A DNA stretch of 64,000 nt from Cloeon dipterum. Lineage: Eukaryota > Arthropoda > Insecta > Ephemeroptera > Baetidae. The stretch lies in contig NC_088787.1 of the NCBI RefSeq assembly GCF_949628265.1, positions 34,584,844 to 34,648,843 of the forward strand, in the 5' to 3' direction. The notes below the pieces were generated by a model. It was not told the origin of the DNA. It made no database searches and saw nothing but the letters and a program-made list of their open reading frames with translations. A program made the position numbers and the translations under genes. Shown piece by piece: positions 23,069-60,747 of this stretch; position 1 is the first letter of the stretch, and each line of letters begins with the position of its first letter.

Positions 23069-26000
23069 TTAATTATCCAGCGCCGATTCGCAAATTCCGC
23101 TTTTACTAAATTGCACTGCCTTCATCCTGTAAGGCTTATCAAAAGTGAGCGCAATTGCATAGTTGCTTTCCAGGGTGTCGTTGGAGACCAAGTCCTCGGC
23201 GAAGCTTAAGTTGAACTCCTTATTCGACAAGCACCACGAGGGCCGGTCCAGCCTGCCGAGGCGCGACGCGGCCACCATGAAAAATACACCAGCGTCTTCC
23301 CTCAAAACTGCATGACGACAGAGAATTTTAAACTAAAATCGAGTCAAGAAGCGAGAGTCTTACCGATATTATTTTTGATCATGCAGTCGAACTTTTCTTT
23401 GGTATCGATTGTGACCAGTCGCATGCCCATATTGCAGCAATATCTCATGTTGCCAACGTAATTTTTCTGAAAAATGAGTGCAAGTCGAGTAGGTAATTTT
23501 TTAAAAAATTGTTTTTGAAACTTTTAACGCCAAGAAAAAAGGGATAATTAAGCTTTTCTGGTTAAATATAAAGAGTTTTCCTCTTAAATCACCGCAATTA
23601 AAACACTACGTCCTATTATTTTTTATTTCCAACTGCGGGGGCCAGCGATTTGCGATTAAACTGGTTCGCACTGCGCAGATCCAAGATGGCGTCTGAATGA
23701 GGGAAGCAAAAAGCTCTCTTTGGATTGCCGTACGAGTGTCAAGAGTTTGTTTTTACGACCCAAAAGACACAATTAGTTAAGAGTAATGAAAATTATGTCA
23801 CAATATTGACCCGAAAACTTGCTTCTTTTCGCGCATTTCCACGCGATCGTTTTTTCGCGCCATATATCTGCGCGTCAAATCTGGACCCCGCAGATTTCCA
23901 GACAAATCAATCGTGAAAATCACCAGATATGACATTAAATATTCTAATTTTATTATGAAATCGGACTATATAAATATTTTTAAGCAAATTTTTAATATTA
24001 CATACCGAACCAAGGTTTGAGTATGTGAAGAATTTCCTGTTGCACTTAAACGACTTTTTGTAATTAACTACGCCCGTAGAATAGAACATATTTTCTAGAG
24101 AAGATTCAGAATTATTTTTAATTAAATACATACAACGAATCCATACCCCTAAAATTCGTAACCATGGCTTTTTGTTGGGCCTGTAATTCTAGAAATATAT
24201 AAAAAAACTATTCCTCATAAAAAAGCATATATTTCACGTTGACAATGCAATCAATCTCCGGGCAAACCCCTTTCTCAGGTTCCAAATAGAGAAATGGCTC
24301 CTTAGAATTATTCAGGTAATTTATTTTGGGAGTAAATTATAATTTGCAAACCGCAATAGAAATCTCCATCGTCTCCACTAATTCTCCAAAATAGTCTGGA
24401 GAATTTTCCTGGCCGCACGTGAGTAGCTCGCTACATTTGTCGCACACATCCATTCCCTCTGATCCCGCATGAGTAAATATAGAATTATTCCTTAGAAAAT
24501 TCATTATACTTGTCACATTTGTACAGTAGTCTAATGTTGTGTACATATCGAGCAATTTATGAAAGTTGTCGGTTGTGAAGTCTTGGAAAAAGGCAAATAT
24601 CTTGTCCTCTGCCAGTACACCATCTATAAACTGTTGAAAGACCGTTTTTGACGAAGTTTCTGAGCACACCAATCGCTTCTTGAGGGTCGAATTAGTTAAA
24701 GTGGATATTTTTCCGACCAAAAAGTGCAACGCAACGTGCGAACTTTTTTCCCGCCAAAACAATATGAATGCGAGAAGTGCGCGTGTGTGAGAGGTGGCTG
24801 GATCTGACAAAGAAGTCATTCGTACAAGCGGTCTATCTGCAAGTGCTCAAACCGCTCTGACGCATGCGCACTTCTCGCAAATACGTTCATATTGTTTTGG
24901 TGGGAAAAAAGTTCGCACCTCGCGCTTGACCTTTTGGTCGGAAAAAATATCTGCTGTACCTAATGCGAACCTCAAGAATCGATTAGTTTGCTAAGAAACT
25001 TCGACAAATATAGTCTTTATTAAATATTGACTGGTTAAAAGGGGATTTTTGTGAGGATACATTCATTGTCACGAACCAGTCCCGTTCCCTCGCCATAGCA
25101 TTTGATGAAACATTTTTCTCGCAGCTCGTCCGCAGTCGTATTGTAAAGAGCCCTCACTTCACCTGGAAACGATTAAGAGCTCGAGTAACCAAAATTTATT
25201 TTAATTTTTACAGTGGTTTATATACAATTAATACATAATAAGGCATATTAAGTATAGTTTTTTTTTAATCCAAGAAATTAACCAAAGAAATGGAAAACTT
25301 CTAAAAAAAACTAATTTTCTATAAATAATATTCTTATAAGACTACTTTCTTGAATCCCTCAAAACTATCGAAATTTTTCCTTCCAACCATAAAAATGTGA
25401 AACTGAAGATTCAAAATCCATTTATTTTTGCTTCGTAACTGATAATAAAATGGAGCCCTACAAGAAAATTCCACTCTAACGTGTAAATTTTTGCAGACTT
25501 TTGTGAAATTAGAAATAAGAAATTATGAAGCTTATTTTAATTTAACAGAAAATGCTACTTACTTGCCGTGAGGTTATATTCACGGGCGCATTCTATTTCA
25601 ATCTCATTGAAGAAAGATGGGGCTTGGACTCTTGCCTTTTGAAAATAACATTATTTGCAAAATTAGGCATTAAAAATAAAAATACCTCGCAAACATATCT
25701 CATCTTCGTGGAGCAAATTTCATCATGCAAAAGTCCGTCCGGAGCAGTTACGGCCAGACAAGTTCCTTCTTCAATTAGAAGGTCAGGTTGACCCATTCCC
25801 CACCTAAATTAAAAATTTTATAGTACTTTTCCACACCCATCCACCCGCATGCTAAGAGGAGATGGACAATATCAGAGCAGCTTAATTATTACACCCCCGT
25901 TTCTTCCCGATTGGAGTTTTATTCGACTATTTATAATAACAATTGTACTGTTACATATGACCACGAAGAGTATACATATATATAATAAAATTATTAAGGC

Positions 26001-29000
26001 ATGTTAACCTTTGTACCTTTTAACTTAATCGCATTGTTTCAAAGTAACAAGACGACGTCGACAATAAAATAAAAAATAGTAACATTTTCTGACACCGAAC
26101 TTGATTTTTTTCTTTTCACGAAACTAAAAAATATACAATATATACGCGCGTCACGGGTAGGGCGTCACGCATAACGGGGAGGGCGTCACGCATAACAAGG
26201 AGGGCGTTACGCGTCACGAATAACATGTAGGGCGTCATGCATAACGGGGAGGACGTCACACGTCACGGGTAGGGCGTTACGCGGTTTATTTTATAATTAC
26301 TCGCGCGATAATTATATGGATTAACCTGGCATTGCCCCGTAAAAGTCTGTTGGCCGAACAGAATCCGAAGTTCTTTTTGCAGCCTTGGTCTGTGGCTGAA
26401 GTCCAGAATTTGCCACTTGCGATACTCGCATCTGCCAAAGTTGTTTTACAATTTTCCAAAGAAAGGAAACCCCGCACATGATTTAATGAATTTAAAGCAA
26501 TTTTGTATGCATGAGACATTATTTAGTATTTCTATACTCATGAATAGGAAAAATGAAATATTAATTTCTAAAATGGATACAGTAGCTGCTATAGAGGCTT
26601 ATATGGCTCATCATGTAGATTGAAAGACAATGCAATTCTAGATTTCAATTATTGCTTGTTAAATTCACAAAATTATGTAATGCAGATTAAATAAAATCAA
26701 TGCGGGGTTTCTTTGTGAGAGTTTAATTCACTGTAGAATGCGCCGACCAAAATTGGGTAAGTCACGTCTAGATGTAAACTGATTAATTTCATTCCAATGG
26801 CGCAACACGCGGCCAGAGAATCTGCAAACTGATCACTTTTCTTTAGAATCGATGTTAATTATTACTTTTCCGATTCGTATACAGTCCTAGAATCATCGGG
26901 GTGACTTATTATCAACGTGCGTGATCCGTTGCGAATTAAAATCCCGCTCTTATTTGGTTCTATATTGCACAAATCATTTGTAATTAAAAAACGAAACATT
27001 TTGGTGTCTGTAGACCTGATAGATATTTTGTAACATTGTCCGCCAAAGTTTTAAACAAATTCTCCTGGAAACAAACTCGTGCGTGATATATTTATTTTTT
27101 TTTCTTTTTTTGGAAATACCTGTTTAACGCAGGGTATGTTCGGACACACTGGAGAGGAGCAGCTCCTTGGAATTATCGGCCCCTGCCATTTAATGTTTAA
27201 TTAGGTTTACAATTAGTTCAAAATAATAAAATGACTAGACTATTCAGCACTATTATTTAAGAGACCGTCTTTGACGAAGTTTCTGAGCACACCAATCGAT
27301 TCCTGAGGGTTGAATTAGATAGAGTGGATGTTTTTTCCAACCAAAAAGTGCAGAGCAACGTGCAAACTTTTTTCCCGCCAAAACTATATGAACGTATATG
27401 CGAGAACTGCGCACGAGATAGAGCTGGTTTGAGCACTTGCAGAGAGACCATCTGTACGAATGACTTCTTTGTCAGAGCCAGCCAGCTCTCACGCATGCGC
27501 ACTTCTCGCATTCATATTGTTTCGGCGGGAAAAAAGTTCGCACGTCGCGCTGGACGTTTTGGTCGGAAAAAGCACCCATTTTACCTAATTCGACCCTCAA
27601 GAATCGATAGATGTGCTCAGAAACTTCATAAAGGACGTTCTTTAAAAAATAAACGTGTTAACTTACTTGACACGCAAAAACTGAAAGCGAGCCGCATTTT
27701 GTGTCATAAAGCGACACCGATTTGCCAGCTTTGTTCGTTTCTACCAGAACGCAGTTTTCAGATTTTTTCAGGTAATTTGGCTCAGAATTTGCCCAATTCT
27801 TCTTAATAACATTTTTAGTGCTGCACCAGTAATAAATTTTTTCGGCCGGCGACTTTCTCAATCCGTAAGTCCAGTAATATCTGCTGATCCTCCTCCTGTA
27901 TTCTGCAAACCAATATGATTTCAAAGGATGATGAAACGGCTTAAAATTGTCACGTACGCTCGTTAAAAATAACTGATTTCATGCACGTGACGTCCTGCGT
28001 CTCAAGGTCCAAAGGTTGCATTCCGATTTTGCAGCATTCGGCTGCATTTTGCTCCCAAGAAAGCTATAATGAGACGATCTTATGCATATAGAGTCTATAT
28101 TTATAGGAGGGATTAAAGTTACAAATTTTCTGCCAAAGAGGTACAGCTTGCCGCACATTTCTATCCAAAGCCCGTAAGAAGACAAATCTGAATCGTGAGA
28201 ATTTTAAATTAAATATGCACATTGAGTAAGAATTAATAGTTAGATAATATTAAAAAGTTTTTAAATGATAATTATTTCATATTATCGTAAAAAGATGACG
28301 TAAATTCAAACCTTTAAGCGAGCCATCAAGATTGAATAGGGCAGGCTAAAAGGAATTTTTAACTTAACACGACAAATTTAAAAACAATGATCACATCTTT
28401 GTTGCACGTTGCGGGGCACGAAGGAAAGGCCTTGTTTTGATTTTAAATAAGTTAAAACCAAATGTCTAATTTAATGACTATTAACTGCTGGAGCTGTCGT
28501 AGATGAACTTGGAGGTTTAGTGCCTCTTCTCCACAAAGACATATCAAATTTAGTGGTTGAGAGGATGGTTGCCGGCAGTGTGGATGTCTAAAAATTAATA
28601 CACCAGTTGTATTTGTATCAGCCCTTAGTGTTCATAGCCGCCAACAGATGGCGCCACCGTATACTTTGTTATAAATTTAATTTTTAGGCCCTTCCACTGC
28701 GATTTGAGACTCAATCCTGCCACTGTGCGTTCTTCACTTAATATACTTTCTTTTCACGGGCTGGAAACCAAAATTTACTAAGCCGGTCGCCGTAGAATCG
28801 TGATAAACTATTTTTTTAAATACCAAAATCTTTTCCGACGTTTCTACGGCAAATGGCTGGACTGATTTTGGTTTTCACCACGTCAAAAGAAAGCATATTA
28901 AGAGAAGGATGCACGCAGTGGCAGGATTGGGTCTGAAATCGCAGCGGAAATGCATTAAAATTAAATTTATTACAAAAGTGGCGCCATCTGTTGGCGGGTT

Positions 29001-29965
29001 TAAATACTAAGGGCTGTGTATTAGTTGGTTTTAATTATTTCTGAGAACAACCTCTACGTCCGCAGACGTGGTTGTGACGTCAACTGTGTCAAGGGAATTG
29101 GGTGGGGCACTCGTTTCGGGAAATTCAGTCGCTGCTGTTGCCGCCACATCGCTTCCTCCGGCCTGCATTCCATAATATGAAAATTAAATTTCTATCCACT
29201 TCACTCGTACTCCAATAATTTAATTTAATTTGCCAATCCAGGCCTTTAAAATCCAATTATTTATAATTACAGCAGTAGTCCCAATTTCGGGAGTTTCAGT
29301 CGGCAATAAGTCACTAGCCTTGGTGGTCTCTTGAGTCTCTTCGTCATTTTCCTAAAAATCAAAATCATTTATAGACAAATTTGTGATTTCTGAAATTAAA
29401 TACTGCGGAGGGGCTGGTTTCAGTGTTGGAATTTGGCTCTTTCGTCGTGATGATTTCTTCTGTTCCATCATCAGTTACATAATCAGACGAAATCTCCACT
29501 GAAGTGGTCTGAAAATGCTTTGCACTTGAAAAATCTGACGCAAAATTTAAATAAAACTTGCTTTTTCTAGTGACGCGAGTGTTGAAAGGAAAGCTCCGCT
29601 TGGCTACGAAATTAAAAATTAAAAAACCGAGGCAAAAACTGCAAACTCACTAAAGGACGAGTGGGTTTAGTCCTTCCCGCGATTGACACATTTTTATGTT
29701 TCCTTGGATTTATGCAAGAATCCCTTCCGCAGCATTTAATTATGTATTTAACCCTCTTTAAATGGGCCTTTTTGCGTTTGTGACGGACTAAAAATAATTA
29801 GAATTAAATAAATTAATATCTGGTTCATTAAATATATTCACTTCTGACGCCTTCGGTCCCTTCAAAAATCTGCAATAATTTAAATGATGTAAGAAGTAAA
29901 CTCCAATTCGTAAATACCATAAAAGCGACGAAAAGAATTGTTGCAATTTTATGTGGAGCAACCAT
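23069..29965 (-). CDS. CTLD-OBP chimeric secreted protein, minus-strand paralog
   Basis: Start ATG at 29965 with signal exon 29965-29918 (MVAPHKIATILFVAFM), then 29869-29842 and 29787-29651 (lysine/arginine-rich, Cys-Cys), Thr/Ser-rich exons between about 29510 and 28490, CTLD 1 in exons between about 28352 and 27660 (WANSEPNY, FACQ), linker near 27190-27105, CTLD 2 between about 26960 and 25690 (MGQPDLL, KMRYVCE), an OBP domain between about 25620 and 24345 (ECAREY, KCFIKC, LDYC, VCDKCSELLTC), linker 24310-24170, and CTLD 3 from about 24120 to stop TAA at 23069. Each exon has a counterpart with the same phase in the plus-strand gene at 31245-36932. Introns hold two family A MITEs, a family C palindrome, an hAT-like MITE and a minisatellite. 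I did not verify every junction, but saw no frameshift. Secretion and ligand binding are inferred from domains. Confidence 0.8.
23633..23893. mobile_element. hAT-like MITE, copy 3
   Basis: Begins CTGCGGGGGCCAG, ends CTGGACCCCGCAG. Flanking octamers ATTTCCAA (23625-23632) and ATTTCCAG (23894-23901) agree at seven of eight positions. It lies in an intron of the minus-strand CTLD-OBP gene. Confidence 0.85.
24638..25019. mobile_element. TTAA palindromic MITE family A, in OBP intron
   Basis: Arms AGACCGTTTTTGACGAAGTT and its reverse near 25000-25019; the right flank is TTAA, the left flank is TTGA. It sits between the two halves of the OBP domain. Its left end abuts the exon beginning TTTATAGATGGTG (minus strand), so the pyrimidine-rich tract before that acceptor comes from the element. 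Confidence 0.85.
26147..26283. repeat. Minisatellite, unit about 21 bp
   Basis: About six degenerate units of the form GGGCGTCACGCATAACGGGGA, in an intron of the minus-strand CTLD-OBP gene. GC-rich within an AT-rich intron. Confidence 0.85.
27261..27641. mobile_element. TTAA palindromic MITE family A, copy in lectin intron
   Basis: Flanked by TTAA at 27257-27260 and 27642-27645; arms GACCGTCTTTGACGAAGTTT and reverse. The long ORFs on both strands here are artefacts of the palindrome. Confidence 0.9.
28601..29030. mobile_element. Palindromic MITE family C, copy 1
   Basis: Left arm GCCAACAGATGGCGCCACCG and the right arm its reverse (TGGCGCCATCTGTTGGCGGG). Ends read ACCAGTTGTATTTG and reverse. 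Inner inverted blocks include AACCAAAATTTACTAAGCCG / TGGACTGATTTTGGTTTTCA. Located in an intron within the mucin-like part of the minus-strand CTLD-OBP gene. The second copy is at 49762-50178. Confidence 0.85.
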
Positions 29966-31244: not shown

Positions 31245-34200
31245 ATGGGTGCTCTACATAAATTTTTAATACTTGTTTTACTCCTCACGTACATGGTATT
31301 TATTCCCTTTTCAAGTTTAAACTTGGGATCAAAATTAGTTTCATTTCATTCGATTTCAGCTCTGCGTTGAAGGCTCCAAACCCAATAGAAGTGGCTATTA
31401 TTTGCATTTAAAAATTGATTTCAGACATTTTTTGAATAATTTTCAGTGCAACGGAACCGCCTCAAGGCAAAAAGGAGGAATACAATTATTAAATGCTGCG
31501 GCAAGGATTCGTGTGTAGCTCCAAAAAATGTGTCTCATGCGAGAAGAACAACTGCACCGACCTCTGTAAAATTAAAATATTTATCTATTTAAATTATGAA
31601 AAATTTAACACACTTGTAGTCGTCAACTACTAAATCTTTAACCTCGTTTCGGACCACTTCCCGAAAAGTCCCAGTCGTAAAATTTAAAAAATTAACTAAA
31701 CACTTTTTAACTCAATTTTTTTTAAGATCACTACTCTGGAGAAAAACATTGTTCTTGAGACAACGGCTCAAATTCTTGAGCCCAGCACAACTATGGTAGT
31801 TTTAAAACGATCAAAGTTGTGCAAATTTCACTGGCTTTTACTCGCAGCAAGCGCCCAGCAGCCTCGCTGGTTCGGAAAATGTGTCGAAAGCGGATGTGGC
31901 GCACGAAACAAACTCTCCAACGACCGAATTTCAACACACCACAACAACCGCTGTTCGTTCCTCTGTTACAAACACCAAAACTTAAAAATTTCATTCTATT
32001 TAAATTGCAAGATTGAAGAAACCAAAGGCTCGTCCACATCAACAAGCCAAACTGAAGAATATATTATTTCTGAAGCCACTGACACCTCTGTCCAAAGTGA
32101 CGAAACAACGACAGCAGCGGATGAGAATGAGGTTTTAATTTTAATAAGTATTGGCATGGTGTAAAAAAAAGAAATCGTTTGAATCAAAGCACCATAAATG
32201 TTCAATGTGACATTTTTAATGCTCTCGTTGTGAATATACAGGCTGGAGGAAGTAGCAGTGAAATTGCAGCAAGCGAAACAACTGCCGCACAACCCGATTC
32301 TCTCGTCCCTGCTGACGTCAATTCCACTGCCAGAGAGGTTGTTATATGTAACTATATAAAACTGTTCACCCTCTTTCTCAAATCCGCCTTTTCTGGAAAT
32401 AATTGTTCAGCTTGGAATTCTAAAAGTATTTATTTCAATTTTTGTATGGTTTAGGAGCCAATAAAGGTCATTTTCATTTTCAACGTTAGTGAAGTTGGCG
32501 ATATCGCCAGCCCATTTTTCAAAATTTTTAAAAGTAGTGAACTTGGCGATATCGCCAAAATTCGATTTAAAAAAAATAGGTTCAGAGGTAGGAAATAAGC
32601 ATAAGTGAACCAACCCCGCACGCACAAGTGGTTCTAAGGGGTAGAAACACGCTCAAGAAGAACAGAACCGCTTGAAAGCCGTAGAAAACAGCTAAATAGA
32701 TACTTCAACACTCAGCAGGGTTTAGCCACCTTGAAACCTCCTCAGGTGGATTCTAAATTTTATGTAGAACAAGATAGGACGGGTTCCCGCGAAATCGGCG
32801 AGGGCCCCGCGGGGCCCCGAAAAAACTTTGGGCACCGGGACTTTAGAAGTAGACCGTCGGCGCGAGCCGCACCGCGAAAATCTCGATTTTTTCTGAGCCA
32901 GTTATTCCGCGAGGGCCCCGGCACCCAAGTCGCGTCGCGCTCCCACAGTCCCACAGATAGGATCGGCGCCGCGGCCGATCGATATTTTGCTCATTTTCTC
33001 GGTTTTCGGGGGTCGCCGCGCCCCACATCAGTCTAAACTCATGGGTCCCAATGTCCGATCGACTCGGCCGAGGTTCCGACGCATCCCCAGCGTTTTTCAC
33101 GCTTTCGGCCCTTTTTAAGGGTAGACTGCAGGGTTTAGCCACTTCGCCACCCGTCCTATCTTGTTCTACATAAAATTTAGAATCCACCTGAGGAGGTTTC
33201 AAGGTGGCTAAACCCTGCTGAGTGTTGAAGTATCTATTTAGCTGTTTTCTACGGCTTTCAAGCGGTTCTGTTCTTCTTGAGCGTGTTTCTACCCCTATTA
33301 GAACCACTTGTGCGTGCGGGGTTGGTTCACTTATGCTTATTTCCTACCTCTGAACCTATTTTTTTAAATCGAATTTTGGCGATATCGCCAAGTTCACTAC
33401 TTTTAAAAATTTTGAAAAATGGGCTGGTGATATCGCCAACTTTACTAACAGACCAAAATCCTTGCCAAAATTCACGTCAGTAAAATGTTAAAAATTTTGT
33501 TTAAATTTTAGCTATTGGCACAGACATCAACCGATGCCACCAACACACCATGGACTTTTACGACTGAAAATTATTCCCCGTGGAGGGTGGCAGGCAAAAA
33601 ACCAAATGCAACTACAACACCGACTCCAATGGTACAATTAATATAGCATTTTGGTTAACTTTTAAATAAAAAAATATTTTTAACAGAATTTTCCAACGTG
33701 TGCCCCGGTGTGCAACAAAAATGTAATAAATTAACTGGTTAATATTTATACTTGTGAGACTAATACAAAATTCAAGACGACATTGTTTGGTCTGGATGGA
33801 ACTTTGAAGGGTTACAAATTTTGTTATTGTTAGATGCGAGTATTTATTTAATTTCAGACATGTCATCATACGGAATTTGGGTGGAAATGTGCGGAAAGCT
33901 CTACCTCTTCGGCAGGAGATTCGTAATTCTTCCCCCCTTTGGTGGTTCAACCACAAAAAAATTGATTCTTAATTTCTCTTCGCGATCAGATTAACTGGGA
34001 GCACAATGTAGAGCAGTGCTGCCAGCTGGGAATGACTCCGATTAATTTGGATCTCGATGCAGATTTCAAATGCGTTGCTTCTTTGACGTCTAATGACGGT
34101 CGGAAATGATTTAAATTTAAATTTCGAAATAATCTTTTGAAGTTTTTAGACTACAGGAATAGAATCAGCAGATTTTACTGGACTTATGGCTTGAGGAGGT

Positions 34201-36932
34201 CAGAAAATGCTGACTCGTCTTACTTCTGGTGCAATACCGGAAACAACATCACCAAAAATTGGGCTGGCGGAGAACCGAACTATAAAGACAAATCGGAAAA
34301 CTGCGTGCGAATGGAGATGATCAGAGGAGACAGAACTGTCAGACTCTCTGACGTCAAATGCTCATCAATAAGTGTATTTGCGTGCCAGGTAAATATGCAA
34401 TTGAAGCGCGGAAATGTTCATTTTTTAATGTTTTGCAGGGACCGAAAATCCCAACACCGTGCACCTCGCCAGTTTGCCCTAATTATATTTGCGAAAAGAA
34501 GGTTTAAAATATTTTGTTTATTTTTTAAGCAAATTTAATAAGGAGAGTGTTGTAAAACAGGCATCCATTTATAAAACACTAGCAGACAAAGCAACAAGAT
34601 ACATGATTAGTTAGTAATTTGTGGTCTAACTAAATTCGCAGCTTTTTTATGATATTTCTTGCAGATCAGCATCAGCAGGGGATTTGGATTAAAAACTTGA
34701 CGCGTGTCATCATGATAAGCTTTCCGAATGATACAAAAACTGTATGATGCCACAAACCAATTGCAAATAATTTAATATAAAATGAAAATAAAGTATGTAG
34801 ACTCGTTTTCTGCGTGTTGCGCCGTCGGATTGAAGCTGCTCAGCCTGCACCAGGATTTGATGTTCTCCTTTTTGGTCGGCGCTTTTAAAAGTAAGAACGC
34901 TTACGTTTTAACCTCTTTTTTTATAAAGGGTGTGAATTTTTAACGTTTTTCAAAACTATAGTTTGTCACGAAAGCATCCAATTTAGCACGGATTGTGCAA
35001 TTTTATGCCTTTTTTAACTGCTAACATCTGTGAACAAATGCAGAATTTTTAAATATTATATAATTACATTACCTAAGCAAGAAAATGAGACCACTGTTTA
35101 AAATAAAGCTGAAACAACTATAAAATTAATAAAAATTGAATTTTTAAGCCCCCCCCTCCCTAAAAAGAATAAATAATTTAATTTTTTTTTCTAAAAATTG
35201 ATATTTCTTGCACAAACACCGCTCTATATTTAAATGTCCTATTTAGGGGCAGGAATATCGGGCGAAAAATTCTGGACGTCGGCGACTGACGCTGGTTGCA
35301 AATACAACTTTGGCTTTTGTTCCACGAAAAGACTCTTGCGCGATCATACCAGGTTTATTTCTGAATAAGAAATGTTTATTATTAATTAAAATCTTGTGCT
35401 GATTGTGCTGAGTCAGGTGGGCGAAAGGACAGCCTGATCTTTCAGTAGCAAACGGAACTTGTGTTGCCGTAACACCTGATGGTCTTTTGCATGACGAACT
35501 CTGCACTAAAAAAATGAGATACGTTTGCGATGTACTTATTTCTTATCTCTGTGTCATGCAACATTTCTAAATTATTTCATTTCAGGGAAGAGTTCCAAAA
35601 TCGTCACTGTTTGATTCTGTTGAGAGAGAATGCGCGCAGGAGTTCAATTTTACGGAGAGTATGCGATTAATTGATTTTAATCCTGGAATATTCAATCCAA
35701 AGTTTTCTTCCAGGCGAAGTGAAGATTTTTTTGAATTCAACGCCGACTGATTTAAGAGCTAAATGTTTCTTAAAATGCTATGGCGAGGGAACAGGACTGG
35801 TCAGGACGTGGATTTAAAAAATTGAAAATTAAATAAAATACGTTTTTTAATTAGTTTGAAGACGGAAATTTAGCAGAGGACAAAATTTTCGCCAATTTTC
35901 AGAGAATGACGCTGGACAACATAGCGCAATTAATGGATATGTCCAATACCATGGATTTCTGCTCCAAATCAGCGAGTAATATTCGCATTTCTTTAATTTT
36001 GCAGGATTGAAATCTTTTTATTTCACGCAGAGGGCATGGATCCTTGCGATAAGTCCTCCAGTCTTCTCAGTTGCGGTCAAGAAAACTCGCCAGATTCGTT
36101 TGGGGAATTCGTGGACACAGTCGAACTATCTATAACGGTCTTTGATAATTTATACCTTATTCTTTTGGTTTAATAATTATGCAAAACATGCAGGAGTCGC
36201 CTCTCATTCTGACACCAGAAGAGGGAGTCTGTCCTGAATATGACTGCGCCGTTCAGGTATAATTATAGTAAAAATATTTTCTCCAAATATATCGTTTCTC
36301 ATATTTAATGGAAATTTAAGGCTGGGTCCAGAGCCACTGTTTTGAATGCCAAGAGTATTTAATATTATTACTCAATTTTTAGACATAAGTTTCTAAAACC
36401 TTATTATAGATTTCACGAAAACAACACTCTCCGGAACTTTTGCTTTCCAAATGACCAAAGTTTGCAACAAGAAATTCGCGGCATTCGAAACTGGTTTGCC
36501 GGTATATTAAATATTTTTTGTACATAAATATTGAACTAAATAATTAATTTCGGCAGCGATTCATGAGAGATAATCATGCAATGTGCTGTCAATACGGAAT
36601 GCGACTGGCGACAGTTGACACAAAGGAAAAGTACGACTGCATGATTCGGGGTCAAATCAGTAAACTGTAGATTATTTCGATAAAAATTCAATTTAAATTG
36701 GGTTTTAGCTTCAAAACTCAGCGCTGGAAAATTTTACGCCGTAGCTGCATCGCGTTTGGGCAAGCTGGACCGGCCCTCTTGGTGCTTCTCGAACGCCGAA
36801 TTCGACTTCACTCTCGGAGCGAACTCTTTTACCACTAACACGGCTGAAACTAACTATGCCATAACTTTTAGCTTTGAGAGACCTGAAATGCAGGCTGTGG
36901 AAAGAGTCTCTAATTTCTTGTGTGAAATATGA
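31245..36932 (+). CDS. CTLD-OBP chimeric secreted protein, plus-strand paralog (853 aa, 27 exons)
   Basis: Exons: 31245-31295, 31360-31390, 31447-31565, 31727-31795, 31848-31964, 32012-32131, 32242-32337, 33512-33631, 33687-33722, 33777-33810, 33858-33922, 33990-34098, 34150-34388, 34439-34501, 34670-34741, 34794-34890, 35247-35352, 35417-35531, 35586-35658, 35714-35799, 35855-35975, 36031-36137, 36194-36256, 36321-36354, 36410-36501, 36557-36659, 36709-36932. All phases agree (2562 nt with stop). Domains: signal peptide 1-22 (MGALHKFLILVLLLTYM); basic Cys-Cys stretch to about 67; Thr/Ser-rich 68-241; CTLD 1 about 254-402 with EPN at 364-366; linker 403-423; CTLD 2 424-553 with QPD at 520-522; OBP 554-682; Cys linker 683-714; CTLD 3 715-853. 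The OBP cysteines are 569, 595, 599, 642, 652 and 661, spacing C-x25-C-x3-C-x42-C-x9-C-x8-C, the classic insect OBP pattern. EPN and QPD are sugar-contact motifs of CTLDs; calcium ligands elsewhere were not checked. Ligands are unknown. Confidence 0.88.
32485..33449. mobile_element. Foldback element with 300-bp arms and a GC-rich core
   Basis: Left arm 32485-32787 and right arm 33143-33449 are near-perfect inverted copies (GTAGAACAAGATAGGACGGG on the left, CCCGTCCTATCTTGTTCTAC on the right). Each arm carries two copies of the palindrome TTGGCGATATCGCCAA near its outer end. The 355-bp core is strongly GC-rich and unique in the window. It sits in the intron between exons 7 and 8 of the plus-strand CTLD-OBP gene. 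No transposase. Target duplication not obvious. Confidence 0.88.
35586..36137 (+). other. Odorant-binding-protein domain inside the lectin gene
   Basis: Four exons (35586-35658, 35714-35799, 35855-35975, 36031-36137) encode residues 554-682: ECAQEF (C1), LRAKCFLKCYG (C2-x3-C3), AEDKIFANF, MDFCS (C4) and DPCDKSSSLLSC (C5-x8-C6). Phases are continuous with the CTLD exons on both sides and no start or stop separates them, so this is one gene rather than two adjacent ones, pending transcript evidence. Confidence 0.85.
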
Positions 36933-49368: not shown

Positions 49369-50994
49369 ATGGCAGCGAGTGTCAGCACAATGTCCAGGAT
49401 GGAGCCGCCTCAGCAAACGAGTTTGATACAGGAAAAGGAGCTGATGGAGCGGAGAATGCTGGAGGAAATCAAAAGGCGTCGTGACGCTGGCCAGTAAGTC
49501 ATTTAAACCGCGTCATTAATTAAATTTTTTTAAACCGAAAAATTCGCAGGGACTCATGGGCTTTGGAGGACTTCCAAGTAGGCCGTCCCCTGGGCCGAGG
49601 GAAGTTCGGCAGGGTTTATCTCGCCCGAGAGAAGAAGACAAAGTACCCTGTGGCCCTTAAAATGTTATTCAAAAAGGAACTGATTAAGCACAAAATGGAG
49701 GAGCAGCTGATTCGAGAGATCGAAATACAGTCCCACCTGAAGTAATCAATTTATTCAATTGACCAGTTGCATAAACCCTTAGTGAAGCTGCCAACAGATG
49801 GCGCAACCACAGACTTTCTTAAAAATTTTGTTTTAAGCGGTTTTAAGGCATTTCCGCTCATTTTCAGACTCAATCTAGCTATTTTTTTTAAATAATTTGC
49901 TTTTTTTCGACGTGCTGAAAACCAAAATCGGTTCAGCCATTCGCCGTAGAAACGTTGGAAAAGATTTTTTTATTCCAAAAAATAGTTTTTCACGATTCTA
50001 CGGCGATTGTCTGAACCGATTTTGGTTTTCAGCACGTCGAAAAAAAAAAGCAAATTAATTGAAGAATGCACAGTGGCTAGATTGAGTCTGAAATCGCAGC
50101 GGTAGTGCTTAAAAATCGAAAGTCTACGGTGGCGCCATCTGTTGGCGGCTTCGAACACTTAGGGTTTATGCAACTGGTGAATTCCATTCTATAATTATGT
50201 ATTTTCACACTTAACTCCTCTTCAGGCACGAGAACGTCCTGCAGATGCTGACGTACTTCGTGGACGAAAGGAGGGTCTTCTTGGTCCTCGAGTACGCCTC
50301 CAAGGGCGAGTTGTTCCGCGAGCTGAACGCGCAGAAGCACGGCCGCTTCGAGGAGCCAAAGTGCGCCAAGTACATTTACCAGGTAGCCAGCGCCCTGCAG
50401 GCGTGCCACGACTGCCAGGTGATACACAGGGACATCAAGCCCGAGAACATCCTCATCTCTGCCAGGGGCAACATCAAGATTGCAGACTTCGGGTGGTCCG
50501 TCCACGACTCGTCCCACACCAAAAGGTTTGGATCTTATAATTTTTGGTAATAATTGATTCATTTATTTACAAATAATTATCAGGAAGACTATGTGTGGAA
50601 CGCTGGACTACCTGGCGCCGGAGATGGTGAAGAACATGGAGCACACGCACCTGGTGGACAACTGGTGCGTCGGCATCCTCTGCTACGAGCTGTTGGTGGG
50701 CAAGCCGCCCTTCGAGAGCAAGTCCAGCCAGAAGACCTACCAACGCATCTGCGAGGCTCACATCGACTTCCCGCCCTACGTCGGCACCCTCGCCAGAGAC
50801 CTCATTACCAAGGTAATTTTTCGGTTAATCAATAAATAAATGTTTGCTTTTAATTAAAATTTCTGCTGTAGTTGCTGCAGGTGAAGCCTGAGAACCGCCT
50901 GTCCCTGAAGGAGGTGAAGGTGCACCCTTTCATCGTCAAGCACTGGCCCTTGAAGAGCGTGGATGATGCCCCGAAGCCCACTAACAATGAGTGA
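49369..50994 (+). CDS. aurB: Aurora kinase, B type
   Basis: Five exons join in frame: 49369-49493, 49550-49741, 50226-50525, 50584-50812 and 50872-50994 (TGA), 322 residues. Ser/Thr kinase features in order: glycine loop [13 protein letters not shown], catalytic lysine in [16 protein letters not shown] helix [12 protein letters not shown] catalytic loop, ADFGWSVH magnesium loop, activation loop [25 protein letters not shown]. Those are Aurora signatures. The short N-terminus (about 48 residues before the domain) and Glu in KGELFREL, where Aurora A has Thr, favour Aurora B, the catalytic subunit of the chromosomal passenger complex. Intron 2 contains a 417-bp palindromic MITE. The B assignment over a single ancestral Aurora is inference. 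Confidence 0.93.
49762..50178. mobile_element. Palindromic MITE family C, copy 2, in Aurora intron 2
   Basis: Begins ACCAGTTGCATAAACCCTTA and ends with its reverse complement, TAGGGTTTATGCAACTGGT. Arms include CCAACAGATGGCGCAACCAC / GTGGCGCCATCTGTTGGCGG and AACCAAAATCGGTTCAGCC / TGAACCGATTTTGGTTTTC. It almost fills the intron. Confidence 0.92.
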
Positions 50995-56531: not shown

Positions 56532-59500
56532 CTAGTCCAGCACATAGTCCTTGAATCTCGCTGGCAATCTTACTTCTCTCTTCGGACGCGTTTTCATCTC
56601 CCGTACCGGCGTTGTCGGCTTTACCGGAGAGGCTGTACCAGGCTCCGATGGTGGGTGCTCCTCCTCCAACCTTAGTTCAGGCACTTCCAGTGGTGTTTGA
56701 AGGGGCTCAGGGTAAATCTGAGGCAGATTGTCGTCAACTTGCACGGCACCACTCCCTGGTACCTGGCCTGCTGGCTGTAATTTAACCTGATCCACATGCC
56801 TCTCGACTGGTCCATGGCTCGTCTGCAATAGCACTCGTCTAGGGCCCAGGGCTCGTACGACCTGAGCTGGCTCCCATCTAATTTTAGGATCCCTGTAACT
56901 CCTACAAACAGCGGCTTGCGCAGGAACTGGTATCTTTGGCACATTTTCAACTGCCGCCACTGCTTGTTTGTCTCTGTTGCTCTGGCGTTGAATGAAAGCC
57001 ATCTCCGGGCGCAGCCTGTCGAGCACGGTCTGTGGCCGTCGGCCTAAGTTAAACTCAGCCGGGGCAACTCCGGTGGCCACCAGCGGTGTTGAGTTGTGGC
57101 CCAAGAGAAAACTGTCCAACTTTGCAGGCCATTCCCTCTCCGGAACCTTCTTCAGGAACGTTTTCACTGTTTGCACAGCCCTTTCAGCCAATCCATTGGT
57201 CTGCGGGCTGTACGGAGGAGAAAAAATCAGTTCAATTCCTTGCCATTCACAGAATTTCTTGAACTCCTGGGCTCTGAATGCCGGTCCATTGTCGCACACC
57301 AAAATATCACACAAGCCTTGCATTCTAAACAGCTTCCTGCAGAACTTGATAGCTGTTTCTGTGTCCATGTTTTTCGTAGATTCGGCGTCAATCCACCCTG
57401 ACAATCCGTCGGCTGCCACGATGAACGTTTTTCCTCTGGAGACTTCGAAGAAATCCAGGTGTACCCGTCCCCATGGACGATGAGGCACCGACCATGGGAT
57501 GATAGGCGCTCTTGATGGCGCTCTATTGAACAAGGCACATGGCTGGCAGCAGACGCTCACTCTGGTAATCTCTTCATCCATGTGTGGCCACCAAAAAAAT
57601 TGCCTGGCCAGCGCTTTCATTCTCGTCTGCCCAAAGTGATTGCTATGCAGCAATTCCAGCACCCTTGTTCGTATACGGCTTGGGACAACTGCCCTATCTG
57701 CAAACGCCAACACCCCATTAGTCACTTTCAACTGAGACCATCTTTTCTTAAATTCTTCAAACCCCTGGGGCAAACATGCTGGGTGTTTACCTTGCAAAAT
57801 GCAACTGTAGACTAACTGAAGTTGCTCGTCCACTTTGGTTTCATCTTGGAACGTCTGTAGCGACAGCTGGTCCTTATTCTCTATGATTTGGAGGAAAGCG
57901 ATGCGGCTTTCTTCTTCTTCATCCTCCTCCTCAGTGCACGGCAGTGACAACCTGGACAAGACATCTGCATTAGCATGCCTTTTCCCCGGCTTGTGAACGA
58001 GCGAAAAGTTGAAATCTCTCAGAAACACGCAATACCTCTTCAACTTCGAGGGCAAATCTTCAGCCATAGGCTTGCCTTTAGCGAAGATTCCAAGCAGCGG
58101 TTTATGGTCTGTAATCAACTCGAACGGCAAGCCCCACAAATATTTCTTGAGTTTCTTGACGGCCCACACGATCGACAGAGCCTCCACTTCGATCTGTGAA
58201 TAGTTCAGTTCACTTTTCTTAAGTGTTCGGGACACGCACATGACTGGTACCTCAGTTCCCGTTTCATCTAGCTGACTCAGCACAGCTCCGACTCCCCTTT
58301 TGCTTCCATCGCACGCCAAGCGGAGTGGCTTAGCGGGATCGAAGTAGGCTAACGCGAAGCGCTTTAGCAGCATTCTTTTGAGACGGTCCCAAGCCTCCTG
58401 GCACTTTTCCGACCATGTAAAAGGGACGCCTTTCTTCAGCAGCCTGTAGACCGGGGTCAAGATTGCGGCCTTACTTGGAATGAATCTATCATAATAATTC
58501 ACATACCCAAGCCAGGCACGCAGCTCATCTGCATTTTCAGGAACTCTCATATCTTCCAATGCCTTCAGCTTCTCTGGCGTCGGTCGCACCCCTTCTGGAG
58601 TAAAGCTGTAGCCGAGGAACTCCAACGCTGTAACATCGAAAATGCACTTTGAGAGCTTCACTTTTAACCCATGTTCTTGGTAGATGTGTAGCACTGCTCG
58701 TGTTCTCGTGACCAACTCCTCCTTTGAGTCGGCCACGATGAGCACATCATCAAAGTATACTTTTACCCCAGGAATGTGCCCGACCAATGATTGGTTCTTT
58801 TCTTGGAACAATGCAGGGCAGATGGACAGCCCTGGGGGCAATCTCAAGAACCGGTATCTACCTTTATGAGTGCTAATGGTCAGCAGCTTAGATGACTCTT
58901 CATCCACTTCAAACTGCAAGTAGGCATCCGCTAGGTCGATCTTGGCAAAATGACTTCCAGGCTTCACACCGGAGATCAGCTGGTCCATGGAAGGCAGTGG
59001 GAAATCAGCCGAAGCACAAGCAGGGTTCACGGTTGCCGAAAAATCGGCGCACAACCGCACTGAATCACCCTTTTCTACATACACTACAGGCGTAGCCCAC
59101 TCACTGAACATAATTTTTTCAATCACTTTCTTTCTTTCTAGTTCATCTAGTGCTTTTCCTGCTTTTTCTCTGAGGCCAAACGGTACGTTTCGGGCTGGCA
59201 GCTGTCTAGGCTTTGCTTCAGGCTTCAACGGAATGTGCACAGGTGCCCCCTTGTACCTGCCCAGCACTGGCTCAAAGACATCAGCAAACTCACTCAATTC
59301 TGGCGGCAGCTGCGTCATGTGGAAAACCCGAGGCACATCCACAGCCTCGGAGACCCTGGGGCTTGTCTTAGCATATCTCAGCTCCGGGACATACACCGAG
59401 ATCCCCAGTGGCTTGAACCAATTCCTACCAATCAAAGCAGGCCCTTCGTTTTCCATAACTAGCAGGTCTAGCGTCACTGGCGGCTTTCCCACTGGCGTGA

Positions 59501-60635
59501 GCTGCACCACGACTTTTCCTGCTGCTCGGATGTCTCCACTTTGTCCCCAGGCCTTCATCTTCACGTCACTCGGCTGGAGACAGTTGCCATCCTTGAAATA
59601 GTCCACAAACGTAGGCCAACCAATCAGAGAATAGGTTGCCCCCGTGTCCACTTCCATCGCTAACTCGCGACCTGCCAGAGGAATTTTCACTTCTATTTTC
59701 TTCTGCTTTGCCTTCGGCATCGCCTCAATCTGCAACAAATAGTTGGTGACGGCGTCCTCTTGTCCATCATCCACCTCCTCCTCTTCCTGCACATGGTGCG
59801 CACTACCCCTTTTCTCTTTAGCCTTACAAACCCTAGCAATGTGACCCTTTTTCTTGCAGATAAAACACTCCGCGTCCTTAAACGAGCATTCTGAGCGTTC
59901 ATGTCTGCGGCCACAACCAGAGCAAACAGGCTTCTTCTGGTCCTCTAGGCCAACTCCCTGTCCACGCTGATACTTCTGGAACTGGCCTTTTTTTCCAAAC
60001 TTCCTCGCCGACTCACCCAATTGGTGCACTGCAGGTGGGCTGGACAATGACTGCGCACTCAACGCAGCACGTTCATGAGCATAAATCTTTGCTGTAACAA
60101 AATCCCAAGTCAACTTTTCTGATTCCTCAGCCAGGAACTCTTCTTTCAGTTTCATGTTTTTCAATCCACTAATAATCTTGGGCACCAGCAACTCCTCTCG
60201 CGCCTTGAGCCCGCTCTTCGTAGCCAAGCTTGACAGCTCTGCAATATACTCTGCAGCCGGCTCTTGAGGTCCTTGCACACGCTGGTTAAACTGGTCCTGA
60301 TACACAATCCTCTGCGGCTCGTTCCTCATGAAGTATTGCGATAGCCTCGCCGTAATCACTTCAAATGACGTTTCTTCCGGCGATTTAGGCGTGCAGATTT
60401 TACTGATAATGCTGAACGTCTTATCATCCTGGCTGTCCACAAAGTAGTCTCGTTTTTCCTCAGCGTCAGAAATTTTCTGGACTCGAAAATGAAATGCCCA
60501 CCTTTGTAGATATTCTTCGAACGATAACGGTCCGTTTGGATTGAACGGATCCGGCCTTTTCCCTCTTCTTGGCCCTTCTCTACGACTCGGCTGCTCTTGA
60601 TCCCCGTCTGACATCGGATGGCCTTGATTTTCCAT
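56532..60635 (-). CDS. Gag-Pol polyprotein of the Ty3/Gypsy element
   Basis: Uninterrupted 1367-residue frame, gag and pol fused without a frameshift. Gag capsid-like region about 30-200; zinc knuckles C-x2-C-x3-H-x4-C at 238-250 and canonical CFICKKKGHIARVC at 257-270; aspartic protease DTGA at 330-333; reverse transcriptase with the YFDD catalytic box at 627-630; RNase H with Asp776 and Asp843; integrase zinc-binding His997/His1000/Cys1030/Cys1033 and catalytic Asp1061, Asp1115 and Glu1151 (DD35E spacing). The order PR-RT-RH-IN defines Ty3/Gypsy. No chromodomain and no envelope gene. Start chosen at the first ATG; translation of two knuckles in one frame suggests pol is not made by frameshifting. 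Confidence 0.95.
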   Translation of the reverse strand: MENQGHPMSDGDQEQPSRREGPRRGKRPDPFNPNGPLSFEEYLQRWAFHFRVQKISDAEEKRDYFVDSQDDKTFSIISKICTPKSPEETSFEVITARLSQYFMRNEPQRIVYQDQFNQRVQGPQEPAAEYIAELSSLATKSGLKAREELLVPKIISGLKNMKLKEEFLAEESEKLTWDFVTAKIYAHERAALSAQSLSSPPAVHQLGESARKFGKKGQFQKYQRGQGVGLEDQKKPVCSGCGRRHERSECSFKDAECFICKKKGHIARVCKAKEKRGSAHHVQEEEEVDDGQEDAVTNYLLQIEAMPKAKQKKIEVKIPLAGRELAMEVDTGATYSLIGWPTFVDYFKDGNCLQPSDVKMKAWGQSGDIRAAGKVVVQLTPVGKPPVTLDLLVMENEGPALIGRNWFKPLGISVYVPELRYAKTSPRVSEAVDVPRVFHMTQLPPELSEFADVFEPVLGRYKGAPVHIPLKPEAKPRQLPARNVPFGLREKAGKALDELERKKVIEKIMFSEWATPVVYVEKGDSVRLCADFSATVNPACASADFPLPSMDQLISGVKPGSHFAKIDLADAYLQFEVDEESSKLLTISTHKGRYRFLRLPPGLSICPALFQEKNQSLVGHIPGVKVYFDDVLIVADSKEELVTRTRAVLHIYQEHGLKVKLSKCIFDVTALEFLGYSFTPEGVRPTPEKLKALEDMRVPENADELRAWLGYVNYYDRFIPSKAAILTPVYRLLKKGVPFTWSEKCQEAWDRLKRMLLKRFALAYFDPAKPLRLACDGSKRGVGAVLSQLDETGTEVPVMCVSRTLKKSELNYSQIEVEALSIVWAVKKLKKYLWGLPFELITDHKPLLGIFAKGKPMAEDLPSKLKRYCVFLRDFNFSLVHKPGKRHANADVLSRLSLPCTEEEDEEEESRIAFLQIIENKDQLSLQTFQDETKVDEQLQLVYSCILQGKHPACLPQGFEEFKKRWSQLKVTNGVLAFADRAVVPSRIRTRVLELLHSNHFGQTRMKALARQFFWWPHMDEEITRVSVCCQPCALFNRAPSRAPIIPWSVPHRPWGRVHLDFFEVSRGKTFIVAADGLSGWIDAESTKNMDTETAIKFCRKLFRMQGLCDILVCDNGPAFRAQEFKKFCEWQGIELIFSPPYSPQTNGLAERAVQTVKTFLKKVPEREWPAKLDSFLLGHNSTPLVATGVAPAEFNLGRRPQTVLDRLRPEMAFIQRQSNRDKQAVAAVENVPKIPVPAQAAVCRSYRDPKIRWEPAQVVRALGPRRVLLQTSHGPVERHVDQVKLQPAGQVPGSGAVQVDDNLPQIYPEPLQTPLEVPELRLEEEHPPSEPGTASPVKPTTPVREMKTRPKREVRLPARFKDYVLD

Positions 60636-60747
60636 GCTTTTGTGACCTTCACCGCGTCTAGATTACGTAATGGCGGCCGGCTCTGACGCGCACGCGGTGC
60701 ACCACTACCAAATTCTCGCGGTCCGCTACAATATCCTCGTCGCCACT

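Follow-up and report, generated by a model that had tools for sequence, protein, structure and literature searches.

A predicted mayfly protein family that sets an odorant-binding protein domain among C-type lectin domains

The locus studied here raises the question of whether C-type lectin domains (CTLDs) and a complete odorant-binding protein (OBP) domain are carried by one protein or by neighboring genes that a gene prediction has joined. Textbooks describe OBPs as carriers that are small and soluble; double-domain OBPs exist. The window, meaning the whole 64,000-nucleotide stretch of Cloeon dipterum DNA that was analyzed, is C2:34584844-34648843 of a 190-Mb, 10-contig genome.

Gene model and domain identity

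By hand modeling, with exon 11 set by homology to P0001, an NCBI model from another assembly, we read a gene at 31245-36932 of the forward strand that encodes 887 aa in 29 exons, with a single terminal stop and all phases in agreement. The initial annotation had given the same coordinates and a single open frame with consistent phases, both of which held, while its 27 exons and 853 aa gave way to the figures above. Exons 2 to 9, in the Ser/Thr-rich part, have the least certain borders, and P0001 differs in detail there. The parts of this gene, and a second copy in the window, are as follows.

31245..31295, +, exon 1: start codon and signal peptide (MGALHKFLILVLLLTYM...), the strongest hydrophobic stretch of the protein, from residue 2
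31360..33631, +, exons 2-9: IIKCCGKDSC motif and Ser/Thr-rich mucin-like region (37% S+T)
33687..34388, +, exons 10-14: cysteine linker 1 and CTLD1 (EPN motif), with PDB sequence matches
34439..35531, +, exons 15-20: cysteine linker 2 and CTLD2 (QPD motif), with the best Pfam PF00059 stretch (residues 479-587)
35586..36137, +, exons 21-24: complete six-cysteine OBP (PBP/GOBP) domain, identified by PF01395 and by a family profile against solved OBPs
36194..36932, +, exons 25-29: cysteine linker 3, CTLD3 (no sugar motif) and stop codon, assigned by paralogue conservation with weak fold support from a paralogue
23087..29327, -, inverted paralogue, linker-CTLD-CTLD-OBP-CTLD: spliced model of 21 exons, stop-free, without the signal-peptide end; OBP exons 25635-24352

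The encoded order is thus signal peptide, IIKCCGKDSC motif, Ser/Thr-rich stretch, linker and CTLD1 (residues 281-418), linker and CTLD2 (456-587), OBP (588-716), and linker and CTLD3 (749-887). All three CTLD modules share a gene structure in which the exon for the cysteine-rich linker ends in phase 0 and is followed by a small exon (length 1 modulo 3) and then by the CTLD exons, and the exon structure of the inverted paralogue matches that of the 31245-36932 gene. A hydrophobic N-terminal start is also present in the homologue from Neocloeon triangulifer (P0008), and an IKCCGxxSC motif is common to the window protein, P0001, P0004, and P0008; in P0001, an ATG farther upstream (31179 region) serves as the start. 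When we looked for a membrane anchor, the 887-aa protein contained no internal hydrophobic stretch stronger than the N-terminal signal peptide.

The longest intron of the gene (32338-33511) holds a nearly perfect inverted-repeat element of ~1 kb (32476-33449, +), with arms of 148, 91, and 71 nt at 98 to 100% complementarity and an apparently GC-rich center, resembling a foldback/MITE-type transposon. Elsewhere in the window, Pfam scans marked a single 1376-aa open frame of gag-pol retrotransposon type at 56532-60662 (-), in which RNase H and an integrase zinc finger and core were recognized in one stretch, and protein kinase exons at 50215-50836 (+; Pkinase E 2.6e-30 and 7e-15) that we take, by motif, to be Aurora-like.

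Failure of profile searches to detect PBP/GOBP had been set beforehand as grounds for rejecting the OBP assignment. Over the whole protein, PF01395 (PBP_GOBP) reached 43.4 bits against a cut-off of 22 (E 4.1e-11), and E 1.7e-12 on the OBP domain alone. The domain lies at residues 588-716 of the present model instead of 554-670 as first numbered, and its cysteine spacing is exactly the C-x25-C-x3-C-x42-C-x9-C-x8-C originally described. In addition, the family OBP profile aligned over nearly its full length with solved insect OBPs (5dic at E 6.7e-9). The domain is internal and has no signal peptide of its own, which sets it outside the class of small single-domain OBPs. PF00059 (Lectin_C) scored 32.6 bits against a cut-off of 22.6 over the whole protein (E 1.5e-7), in two stretches of which the better is in CTLD2. 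Scanned alone, CTLD1 gave 17.8 bits, below the 22.6 cut-off, and its sequence matched E-selectin (E 5.2e-6) and the macrophage mannose receptor (E 1.5e-4) in the PDB. CTLD3 was not detected by Pfam when scanned alone; we assign it because it is conserved in paralogues and because the AlphaFold model of P0007 gave a weak fold match.

In known CTLDs, EPN and QPD motifs coordinate calcium and mannose- or galactose-type sugars. The window protein has EPN in CTLD1, QPD in CTLD2, and neither in CTLD3. Among aligned rows that are partly redundant, the CTLD1 position reads EPN in 9 of 18 and QPD in 3 of 18, and the CTLD2 position QPD in 15 of 19 and EPN in 1 of 19; the motifs are degenerate in several paralogues. 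In an 11-row OBP alignment (A4), the cysteines and a KCF-x-(K/R)-C-x-GE core are invariant or nearly so, and the 10 other sequences are 33 to 69% identical to the window domain. Exons of CTLD1, CTLD2, and the OBP domain gave dN/dS values of 0.05 to 0.26 in both subfamilies described below, for pairs with finite dS among many that were saturated. Purifying selection acts on both domain types.

Structure prediction, one of the checks proposed by the initial annotation, was applied to two NCBI homologues (P0002 and P0007) with only eight sequences each. AlphaFold confidence was fair in CTLD1 of P0002. In P0007 it was fair over part of CTLD3, and the confident portion takes in most of that domain. 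In Foldseek, the P0002 model matched lectin domains significantly, with mannose receptor, Endo180, DEC205, and PLA2R types as best matches, and the P0007 model matched C-type lectin domains weakly (best E 1.7e-3, none at 0.001; no aligned range given). These searches bear out the CTLD fold only; the OBP part of both models consists mainly of helices of low confidence, with pLDDT block means of about 31-44 and 30-58.

The junction, the copies, and the family

That lectin and OBP genes might be separate was the outcome named at the start as refuting a fusion, and the junction itself speaks against it. The junctions that the initial annotation had singled out for checking are kept in paralogues. 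In the window gene, the intron that separates CTLD2 from the OBP domain (35531/35586) is 54 nt long and in phase 0. It measures 49 to 67 nt, again in phase 0, in 13 of 15 spliced copy models, the other two (A32 and A33) being without an exon border exactly there. An intron of this length leaves no room for a gene end, a promoter, and a signal-peptide exon. In a divergent second subfamily, the last CTLD exon reads stop-free into the first OBP helix at all eight loci read (L037-L041 and L044-L046), and the gap between the CTLD and OBP homology blocks is just 9 to 15 nt in L037, L039, L044, L045, and L046. We therefore excluded separate neighboring lectin and OBP genes on the basis of the short phase-0 intron and the open exon shared by CTLD and OBP.

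The domain order of the window gene recurs in eight copies on three chromosomes (L022, L023 twice, and L024-L028); the ten loci first taken also included two flanks without matches (L029 and L030) and a repeat of an L023 copy (L031). Five more divergent loci of the first subfamily (L032-L036) are all chimeric and keep the order, with a less complete CTLD3. All five second-subfamily loci read at length (L037-L041) are chimeric as well. Four of them (L037-L040) have an additional CTLD in front, which makes three CTLDs before the OBP domain, and behind it only a weak match to a fourth (E 0.0006 to 0.014); the sequence of L041 ended short upstream. Pfam scans of spliced pieces of L040 and L044 placed PF01395 above its cut-off in both and PF00059 in one of the two. 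Large clusters of this subfamily lie at C1:39.8-42.9 Mb, C4:33.6-34.8 Mb, and C2:3.4-5.8 Mb, with three CTLDs before the OBP in the copies read. The neighbors C4:29308968 and C4:29315379 have identical search scores, which suggests very recent duplicates.

Genome searches with three first-subfamily OBP queries and one second-subfamily query, a set biased towards the chimeric type, gave after clustering of exon matches at least 145 loci of this OBP type on five chromosomes. An OBP exon matched at E 0.01 or better in 135 of them and only more weakly in 10, one of which (C4:33688818, L043) proved chimeric on reading. We scored a CTLD as adjacent if a match lay on the same strand no more than 3.5 kb upstream. 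The first CTLD lists placed one at 107 or more of the 145 loci (random mean, 0.3; maximum, 2 in 200 trials; opposite strand, 0), a second-subfamily CTLD query alone at 88 or more (random placement averaged 0.2 and reached at most 3; 1 lay on the opposite strand and 0 downstream), and both lists together at 143. In the remaining two, reading the sequence showed a same-strand CTLD exon upstream. At one of these (L042, C3:13741900-13745500), the CTLD exon is closely followed by middle OBP exons in what is apparently a rearranged or broken member. Another two of the 145, C1:17069293 and C5:27974828, each follow a neighboring locus at a distance of 2 kb; either could be a broken copy or a part of that neighbor, so that its CTLD match may belong to the neighbor. 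Approached from the lectin side, at least 88 of the best 96 second-subfamily CTLD loci have a downstream OBP match, and three of the eight misses, when read, all contained an OBP. The chimeric family thus numbers roughly 140 to 150 loci, and the 145 loci of this OBP type with a CTLD upstream exclude a single chimeric oddity.

A genome search with the PF01395 family, which treats exons singly, returned a single match at E 0.001; at E 10 there were four, as follows.

C3:3625495 (L001), ordinary-looking OBP
C4:31081078, member of the 145 loci
C4:31178535, member of the 145 loci
C4:18353268

Within the 3.2 kb examined around L001 there was no CTLD, so free-standing OBPs probably exist in C. dipterum too. 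CTLD-rich clusters resembling CTLD1 and CTLD2 occur at C2:8.29-8.33 Mb, C3:1.40-1.48 Mb, and C3:36.35-36.40 Mb, with no OBP exon among the matches listed. They are possibly related multi-lectin genes and could show the state before fusion. Near the last cluster, C3:36345767-36346930 has a CTLD match together with weak OBP matches.

Both domains are also present in the NCBI C. dipterum models P0001-P0007, several of them partial; P0001, which is 91% identical to the window gene, ends before CTLD3. Among seven NCBI homologues scanned with Pfam (P0001-P0006 and P0008), PF01395 exceeded its cut-off in all and PF00059 in four, falling below it in P0004, P0005, and P0008. A search of other proteomes for the domain pair, as first proposed, found it in N. 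triangulifer, where P0008 (852 aa) has the hydrophobic start, the IKCCG motif, the stalk, CTLDs, and the OBP domain. Protein searches, one of them scoring 8000 candidates and another missing even P0008, gave no matches beyond P0001-P0007 of C. dipterum and P0008 of N. triangulifer. The architecture is conserved in paralogues and in a second genus.

These results bear directly on the possibility that gene prediction joined adjacent lectin and OBP genes. The partial state of several NCBI copy models (P0001 and P0004-P0007) is what such an artefact might leave behind. Against it stand the short intron with its conserved phase, the single open exon that spans the junction in every sister-subfamily locus read (8/8), the CTLD directly upstream of the OBP at 143 of 145 loci and, on reading, at the other two, and the same pair in Neocloeon. 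We regard the artefact as extremely improbable and as already refuted to the extent that genomic sequence can do so. Gene model, Pfam, and paralogues agree that CTLDs and a complete OBP domain are fused in one gene, and it is nearly certain that a signal peptide, a Ser/Thr-rich stalk, and a CTLD-CTLD-OBP-CTLD array form one secreted protein.

Possible functions

Taken as a whole, the account that we consider likely is that of a secreted lectin-OBP chimera, encoded by a family of about 140 to 150 loci, that acts as a surface-held ligand trap or presenter. The protein would be secreted, with a stalk that is probably glycosylated. CTLD1 (EPN) and CTLD2 (QPD) might tether it to glycans of an external surface, or to microbes and algae, and the OBP domain, with all six cysteines kept, could bury a hydrophobic molecule. 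The chimera would then trap or present ligands at a glycan-coated surface of the water-living nymph. For this functional step, the joining of a glycan tether to a hydrophobic ligand, our support is tentative and falls somewhat short of even chances; the low AlphaFold confidence of the OBP part and the degenerate sugar motifs in several copies count against it.

Insect CTLs have established roles in immunity. The main rival reading takes the chimeras for secreted pattern-recognition proteins that have diversified as a family. In microbial glycolipids, their CTLDs would bind the sugar portion and their OBP domain the lipid portion, leading to agglutination or opsonization of microbes. Secretion, multiple CTLDs, large tandem clusters, and the presence of EPN and QPD motifs all fit it. 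It would sit less well with the published OBP set of the species, should that set correspond to the loci described here: those OBPs are described as expressed in head and gills, with probes for three of them marking HRP-positive gill cell clusters in situ (PMC7250882). On balance we hold immune or glycolipid recognition to be unlikely, and the next reading is more doubtful still: the OBP domain could be a disulfide-locked helical spacer that binds no small molecule, in a structural or adhesive mucin-lectin of mucus, cuticle, or silk-like material. Divergence of the OBP sequences between copies (down to 33% and at most 69% identity to the window domain) and the low model confidence on this part are what a spacer might be expected to give, and the nearly invariant cysteines and core of the 11 aligned rows, the purifying selection on OBP exons, and the alignment of the family profile with solved insect OBPs over almost its whole length argue against it.

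The surface-held trap or presenter admits a more far-reaching version, which we offer as speculation with odds well below even. Most C. dipterum OBPs, rather than being free odorant carriers, might form a new lectin-anchored dual-recognition class that reads a glycan jointly with a lipid or an odorant, whether in sensing or in immunity; glycolipids of aquatic algae or bacteria would be one example. Such a class would have originated among baetid mayflies and multiplied there to about 145 loci, taking the place of soluble OBPs under water. A natural protein whose hydrophobic-ligand domain is framed by lectin domains would also offer a directly testable model of joint glycan and lipid recognition.

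Comparison with known systems

Almudi et al. (2020) counted 191 C. dipterum OBP genes, more than in any other repertoire described by then, and 82 of 167 were gill-expressed (PMC7250882). This expansion is in the same species and of a scale similar to that of the 145 or more loci found here. The article treats its genes as OBPs, and "lectin" occurs 0 times in the main text (PMC7250882). In the loci described here, the OBP domain sits in multi-lectin proteins. A comparison of numbers, as distinct from a gene-to-gene mapping, suggests that most of the 191 may be OBP domains inside such proteins. That OBP set, the largest described in 2020, is part of the argument for chemosensory gills; if most of its genes encode multi-lectin proteins, then the OBP count, the gill argument, and comparative OBP trees need re-reading. 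In the heptageniid mayfly Parafronurus youi, 10 OBPs are reported, so mayflies as a whole may not share the expansion; the same source gives OBPs as typically soluble and 13 to 17 kDa in size (PMC13205551).

As for the novelty first claimed for the architecture, the open-license literature searched contained no description of a CTLD and OBP pair, the accessible parts of PMC5381652 and PMC6275457 included, but automated NCBI and UniProt entries already list both Pfam domains, uncommented.

Two known protein groups offer the closest comparisons. With insect OBPs (PF01395; e.g., 3q8i, ASP1, and LUSH), the domain shares the six-cysteine pattern, the Pfam score, and the near full-length profile alignment; 3q8i, entered as "Odorant binding protein," is presumably An. 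gambiae OBP4. Unlike those stand-alone proteins, it is embedded between CTLDs of an 887-aa chain and is without a signal peptide of its own. Several consecutive CTLDs are shared with the mannose receptor, Endo180, DEC205, and PLA2R, the best Foldseek matches of the P0002 model, for which the TM score by query length is low (0.16 to 0.18). Pfam gave only PF01395 and PF00059 in the 887-aa protein at E up to 1, and neither CysR nor fibronectin II. Members of the mannose-receptor family combine CysR, FNII, CTLDs, and a transmembrane anchor, and the chimeric protein instead has an OBP domain inside its CTLD array.
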